Source: a bacterium (GTDB lineage Archaea > Micrarchaeota > Micrarchaeia > Micrarchaeales > CABMGC01). Taken from it: 40,726 nt of DNA. Positions 15,798 to 35,874 of this stretch are shown here, piece by piece. Below the pieces are notes generated by a model, which saw only the letters and a program-made list of their open reading frames with translations, did no database searches and was not told the DNA's origin. The number at the start of each line of letters is the position of its first letter. Position 1 is the first letter of the stretch. The stretch covers positions 1-40,726 of the forward strand of contig JAKBPE010000009.1 of assembly GCA_021829835.1 (NCBI GenBank), read 5' to 3'. Both the position numbers and the translations under genes were made by a program.

Positions 15798-15893
15798 CGC
15801 CAGGGTAGGGATTTGAACCCTAAAAGCCCGAAGGCCATACGCTTGCAGGAAAAATTTCCAGGCGTACGCGTTACCAGATTCTGCCACCCTGGC
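15798..15893 (-). tRNA. tRNA-Ser(GGA) with 12-nt anticodon-loop intron
   Basis: Acceptor GCCAGGG/CCCTGGC, T-arm TAGGG-TTCAAAT-CCCTA, variable-arm hairpin GCC-TTCG-GGC, anticodon stem TACGC/GCGTA with 19-nt loop. Excising 15844-15855 leaves CUGGAAA-type loop with GGA; G discriminator fits Ser. Confidence 0.85.
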
Positions 15894-35604: not shown

Positions 35605-35714
35605 TGGGCCCAGTGAGATTTGAACTCACGACATCTGGCTTTCTTAGTTTAATGAAACTTTTATCCAAAGTTCCTTATAAGACCAGCGCTCTGACCAGGC
35701 TGAGCTATGAGCCC
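35605..35714 (-). tRNA. tRNA-Ile(UAU) with about 35-nt anticodon-loop intron
   Basis: Acceptor GGGCTCA/TGGGCCC, D-arm TAGCTCAGCCTGGTCAGAGC, anticodon stem CTGGT/GCCAG, T-arm GTGAG-TTCAAAT-CTCAC, 42-nt loop. Removing 35641-35675 leaves CTTATAA with anticodon TAT (35677-35679). Confidence 0.85.
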
Positions 35715-35874
35715 TTGCTATTCAATAGCATTTAAATAAGTGTGAATACCAATATAAACATATCTGGCTTCGGGTGAAACATTAAAAACACCATTGCAGA
35801 ATATGTCAAATGTTGTAATGAAAAGTCTTCACATCCACTGGCTGGAAACTCACTGTCATTAAAAGGCAATATTT

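Follow-up and report, generated by a model that had tools for sequence, protein, structure and literature searches.

The window, by which we mean the whole stretch of 40,726 nucleotides that was analysed (contig C38 of the draft genome of an archaeon from the ultra-small Micrarchaeota, with 992,079 bases, 38 contigs, 89.1% complete), carries a real tRNA gene with a UAU anticodon and an intron, the features of which are listed in Table 1. According to our main reading, to which we attribute a probability of about 85%, the precursor would be spliced after position 37 to give a tRNA-Ile(UAU) that replaces the agmatidine/TiaS system in the decoding of AUA, with a U34 lacking the Elp3-type side chain. 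The gene itself is a further example of a published type; less expected are the enzyme losses and the preference for AUA that extend over the entire order to which the genome belongs. To our knowledge, nearly all prokaryotes ensure that AUA, and not AUG, is read as isoleucine by means of a special cytidine modification. A large archaeal group seems instead to manage AUA without it, and one order also does without the usual U34 enzyme, yet uses AUA as its main isoleucine codon even in GC-rich genomes. This order would thus offer a clean natural system for studying how a plain UAU anticodon can keep isoleucine and methionine apart in the genetic code.

Gene structure and anticodon

The Rfam tRNA model RF00005 matched the minus strand from nt 35714 to nt 35605 (57.5 bits, E 5.6e-10) and ARAGORN, when introns were allowed, called at the same place a tRNA-Ile(tat) with a 35-nt intron (locus L019); in bacterial mode with introns off, the gene was missed. 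The coordinates and the length given by the initial annotation hold, and the strand, which it had left unstated, is the minus one. The folding energy of the pre-tRNA was -35.9 kcal/mol, versus -25.7 kcal/mol for shuffled sequences (z -2.95), and excision of nt 35641–35675 leaves a 75-nt type I tRNA with a complete cloverleaf in the predicted fold, showing a C-U-U-A-U-A-A anticodon loop and an A at residue 73. The residues A73, A38, U12-A23 and C4-G69, i.e., the isoleucine identity set of the E. coli tRNA, are all found in the sequence; charging of the spliced product with isoleucine is presumed. The A/T-rich box upstream of the gene is nearly identical in two congeners (L289 and L290). The tRNA gene stands upstream of an SRP54 gene (PF00448, PF02978), in divergent orientation.

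Table 1. Position of the tRNA-Ile(UAU) gene and its elements in the window
Feature	Position (nt)	Strand	Basis
tRNA-Ile(UAU) gene, 110 nt including the intron	35605..35714	minus	Rfam RF00005, 57.5 bits; ARAGORN with introns
5' exon, tRNA positions 1–37, 39 nt	35676..35714	minus	identical in three congeners
Anticodon UAU, positions 34–36	35677..35679	minus	ARAGORN anticodon position 36; intronless relative L134
Intron, 35 nt, canonical 37/38 position	35641..35675	minus	congener introns of 34–37 nt diverged, exons identical
3' exon, positions 38–73, 36 nt, CCA not encoded	35605..35640	minus	tRNA model alignment
CUUA, 5' strand of the 4-bp central helix, positions 32–35	35678..35681	minus	predicted fold
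UAAG, 3' strand of the central helix, in the intron	35643..35646	minus	at least 3 of 4 pairs in 45/45 intron-bearing relatives
3-nt bulge AAA with the 3' splice site	35640..35642	minus	predicted fold
Putative A/T-rich TATA-like box, ~15–25 nt upstream	35729..35739	minus	comparison of the window with L289 and L290

In three congeners (G170, G121 and G237) the exons are the same as in the window, with introns of 35, 37 and 34 nt, respectively, that are all different. Moreover, in locus L134 (JAJZAJ010000001.1), belonging to a micrarchaeon of the same order, the exons are one base off those of the window and no intron occurs, CTTATAAG being read directly in the DNA (wider stretch ...GGTCTTATAAGCCAG...). 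These intronless exons fix the splice product as UAU, and every splice compatible with a loop of 7 nt in a type I tRNA likewise gives UAU. The TAT reading originally proposed is borne out on both counts, and tRNA-Ile(UAU) is supported as the predicted spliced product. It is true that sliding of the junctions, as read from the sequence, can put other triplets at positions 34–36, so that an alternative splice might in principle yield a different anticodon, e.g., UAA or UGA. Leu and Ser tRNAs, to which UAA and UGA would correspond, are however type II with a long variable arm, while the gene described here is type I, and UAU is seen directly in the intronless L134; the chances of such an anticodon are therefore minimal. 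None of the slid junctions gave a type I tRNA other than UAU.

Splice motif and tRNA introns

In the predicted fold, C32-U33-U34-A35 pairs with a UAAG located towards the 3' end of the intron; the next three nucleotides, AAA, form a bulge in which the 3' cut lies. The pairing between TCTTA in the anticodon loop and TAAGA in the intron, already pointed out in the initial annotation as compatible with a bulge-helix-bulge motif, corresponds to the central helix of this splice motif and is retained in all 45 intron-bearing relatives with at least three of the four pairs (UAAG itself in 24, the others having mostly G-U-compatible variants). In the same fold, base pairs are drawn where the 3-nt 5' bulge would be expected, around the 5' cut, and the offset inner helix departs from the strict symmetrical bulge-helix-bulge. 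As modelled, only the 3' side of the splice motif has the canonical form, the other side being relaxed. The pre-tRNA would be transcribed with the intron directly after position 37, and a Micrarchaeum-type splicing endonuclease would cut this bulge-helix-bulge despite its relaxed inner side.

Among the complete UAU copies, an intron was present in 25/25 from Woese-, Pace- and Nanoarchaeota, in 12/20 from Micrarchaeota and in 3/9 from Diapherotrites. The intron is thus dispensable for function, given the intronless UAU genes of relatives, which rule it out as a functional requirement. 

Introns were also observed in the elongator tRNA-Met(CAU) genes of the same genomes (C12:21935, locus L292, and C34:11611, locus L068, in the genome of the window; L214–L243 in relatives). 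In 29 of 30 loci they contain the sequence ATGAGT, which is antisense to the anticodon loop and is followed at fixed spacing by CTGA or ATGA and then by a C'-like box. The methylation target of a C/D guide is set by the N+5 rule, and the sequence predicts that the elongator tRNA-Met intron could guide 2'-O-methylation of C34 of tRNA-Met. The occurrence of these antisense elements beside C/D-like boxes might suggest that the tRNA-Ile(UAU) intron is likewise a box C/D or antisense guide for its own anticodon loop. The antisense TATAAG and the C box (RTGATGA) were however each found in 0 of 45 UAU introns, and the intron is lost in some relatives, so that a modification guide is most improbable here and is already largely refuted by the sequences.

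Further unusual introns were noted. Those of tRNA-Ser(UGA) (C17:59057-59180, locus L031, in the genome of the window; L282 in a relative) contain TCAAGAG-CTGATT, antisense to their own anticodon loop, and a GTGATG box; the N+5 target would be U34. On the minus strand of the window, at nt 15798–15893, lies a type II tRNA whose anticodon loop is interrupted by an intron of 12 nt; ARAGORN called it Ala(GGC), but its long variable arm and its CTGGAAA loop make it best read as a putative tRNA-Ser(GGA). T-loop introns located just after GTTCA appear in tRNA-Arg(UCU), tRNA-Ala(GGC) and tRNA-Leu(CAA) of the same genome (C30:30614, C10:4936 and C35:10931; loci L032, L033 and L067) and, apparently, in the initiator tRNA-Met of the relative G021 (L288). 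Genes with T-loop introns are truncated by the standard tRNA models.

Absence of TiaS and Elp3 and use of AUA

In most archaea AUA is read by a tRNA-Ile2(CAU) carrying agmatidine, introduced via TiaS. No match with TiaS (PF08489) was retrieved up to E 10 in the genome of the window, nor in any of 245 genomes of the phylum or of 50 other archaeal genomes carrying tRNA-Ile(UAU), four out of four control archaea being positive. The lack of tiaS that the initial annotation associated with UAU-bearing lineages was thus verified in all three sets. Absences from the genome of the window are weak if taken alone, since the draft is incomplete and neither the initiator tRNA-Met nor tRNA-Ile(GAU) was recovered from it. 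For this reason, and because T-loop introns break the tRNA model, tRNA-Ile2(CAU) was counted in G021, a relative assembled as one contig of 771,545 bases, whose tRNA set was read out. Its CAU tRNAs are the initiator (L288) and the elongator (L272) tRNA-Met only, and its isoleucine tRNAs are GAU, interrupted by an intron of 14 nt, and an intronless UAU. No tRNA-Ile2(CAU), whose search had been proposed together with that of tiaS, was therefore found in G021, nor in the draft genome, where the only CAU tRNA is the elongator tRNA-Met gene, split over two contig ends; a loose CAU pattern gave 102 matches in the latter, mostly due to chance and uninformative beyond that gene. The elongator-type CAU tRNAs of 117 genomes of the phylum belong to a single type (RCYAGACTCATA) and usually occur once in a genome; one genome showed two identical partial matches.

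AUA accounts for 643 of the 886 isoleucine codons (73%) in 30 ORFs of the window, exceeding the A-ending share of every four-fold box (0.14–0.62). Codon counts on 20-kb samples, with non-overlapping ORFs of at least 150 aa taken mechanically, gave 62–78% AUA among isoleucine codons in ten out of ten genomes sampled within the order, whose GC3 ranged from 0.30 to 0.76, and 6–55% in ten genomes of the class outside the order. The excess of AUA over the A-ending share of the respective genome was 0.29 in the order versus 0.08 in the rest (Mann-Whitney p 0.0006, a value overstating independence, since the genomes are related, so that the safe statement is of one clade-wide shift). AUA is the favourite isoleucine codon across the order, whatever the GC content.

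These data also bear on the possibility that the gene is a degenerate, non-functional copy and that AUA is read by a tRNA-Ile2(CAU) escaping detection, modified by an unidentified enzyme. The incomplete state of the draft would leave some room for it, but the exons are perfectly conserved within the genus while the introns drift, AUA is the main isoleucine codon and a third CAU tRNA is missing from the single-contig G021, all of which makes this explanation very hard to sustain.

As for the state of U34, the usual side chain at this position is started by Elp3. Elp3 (TIGR01211) was found in 0 of 57 genomes of the order, including that of the window, and scored above the cut-off in 41/41 sampled genomes from the rest of the class. 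Without Elp3, U34 in the order cannot carry an Elp3-type side chain and is probably plain or changed in some other way. Such a change may be, for instance, a thiolation, a ribose methylation or an RNA-guided pseudouridylation. In a rival explanation, a Pus1/TruA-type enzyme would pseudouridylate U34 and U36 before splicing, the intron being kept for that purpose. Indeed, in eukaryotes tRNA-Ile(UAU) has both an intron and psi-A-psi (PMC9602550, PMC6000648), and all the complete copies sampled from Woese-, Pace- and Nanoarchaeota retain an intron. On the contrary, TruA/Pus1 (PF01416) was detected in 0/40 genomes of the order and in 1/61 overall, versus 12/14 controls, and many UAU genes of Micrarchaeota and Diapherotrites are intronless, one of them with nearly identical exons. 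Pseudouridylation by an enzyme of this type is thus quite unlikely, although an RNA-guided one may occur.

In our main reading, the spliced tRNA-Ile(UAU) would read AUA instead of the agmatidine-CAU tRNA-Ile2/TiaS system, by means of a U34 that is most likely unmodified or altered in another way, in a manner resembling Mycoplasma mobile; tRNA-Ile(GAU) would read AUC and AUU, and AUG would be left to the elongator tRNA-Met. Against this reading, binding also to AUG was reported for a haloarchaeal UAU mutant tRNA containing cnm5U (PMC7694415), which raises the question of how the order reserves AUG for methionine. We tentatively suggest, at slightly less than even odds, that the whole order reads its dominant AUA with UAU, U34 being free of agmatidine-, Elp3- and Pus1-type chemistry, and that AUG is kept for methionine by other means. 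These might include, for instance, a 2'-O-methylated C34 on the elongator tRNA-Met, guided by its own intron, together with changes in the synthetase or the ribosome. If so, the disappearance of Elp3 and the shift of preference towards AUA would belong together.

Distribution and comparison with known systems

A pattern of the 5' half of tRNA-Ile(UAU) matched at least 80 loci in named genomes, those listed being nearly all from DPANN (Micrarchaeota, Woesearchaeota, Pacearchaeota, Nanoarchaeota, Diapherotrites and others) with a few from bacteria. Within the phylum the pattern was present in 171 of 245 genomes, including 56 of the 62 from the same family as the window, and missing in 74. A 2018 survey of 167 archaea reported tRNA-Ile(UAU) in Korarchaeum and Nanoarchaeum only (PMC6000648). 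Its rarity in archaea thus reflects old sampling, and the initial description of a genome-encoded UAU as uncommon, limited to lineages such as these two, is outdated, the gene being now widespread in DPANN. Neither the UAU pattern nor TiaS was matched in families f17, f15 and f10 of the class, in most of f12 and f13 and in genus g55, groups that would have either a divergent UAU gene or another solution for AUA. In two genomes from such groups (G074 and G063) AUA is rare, with 6% and 17% of isoleucine codons, respectively.

In the open-licence literature we found no description of an order combining the absence of TiaS, Elp3 and Pus1/TruA with AUA as its main isoleucine codon. The gene type is instead already known, since cleavage of an intron-bearing pre-tRNA-Ile(UAU) of ARMAN-2 (Ca. 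Micrarchaeum acidiphilum) by the endonuclease of the same organism was demonstrated in vitro (PMC12397907). The two share the phylum, the isoacceptor and an intron removed through a bulge-helix-bulge, a likeness drawn from the published description; as a difference, the predicted inner helix of the window gene is offset on the 3' side.

With the archaeal tRNA-Ile2(CAU)/TiaS system the window gene has in common the AUA codon, but the searches for the CAU tRNA-Ile2 and for TiaS were both negative here. The eukaryotic tRNA-Ile(UAU) with psi-A-psi also has UAU and an intron after position 37, whereas the order lacks the Pus1/TruA family and some relatives do without the intron. In bacteria such as Mycoplasma mobile, AUA is read with UAU without a C34-modifying enzyme, U34 being thought to be unmodified (PMC4810244); these are however bacterial systems, and here AUA is the dominant isoleucine codon. 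Finally, UAU is genome-encoded also in Korarchaeum cryptofilum and Nanoarchaeum equitans, the gene of the former being likewise interrupted by an intron (PMC6000648). In those cases it was regarded as a rare gain of single species (PMC6000648), whereas it has become fixed in the larger part of the phylum studied here.
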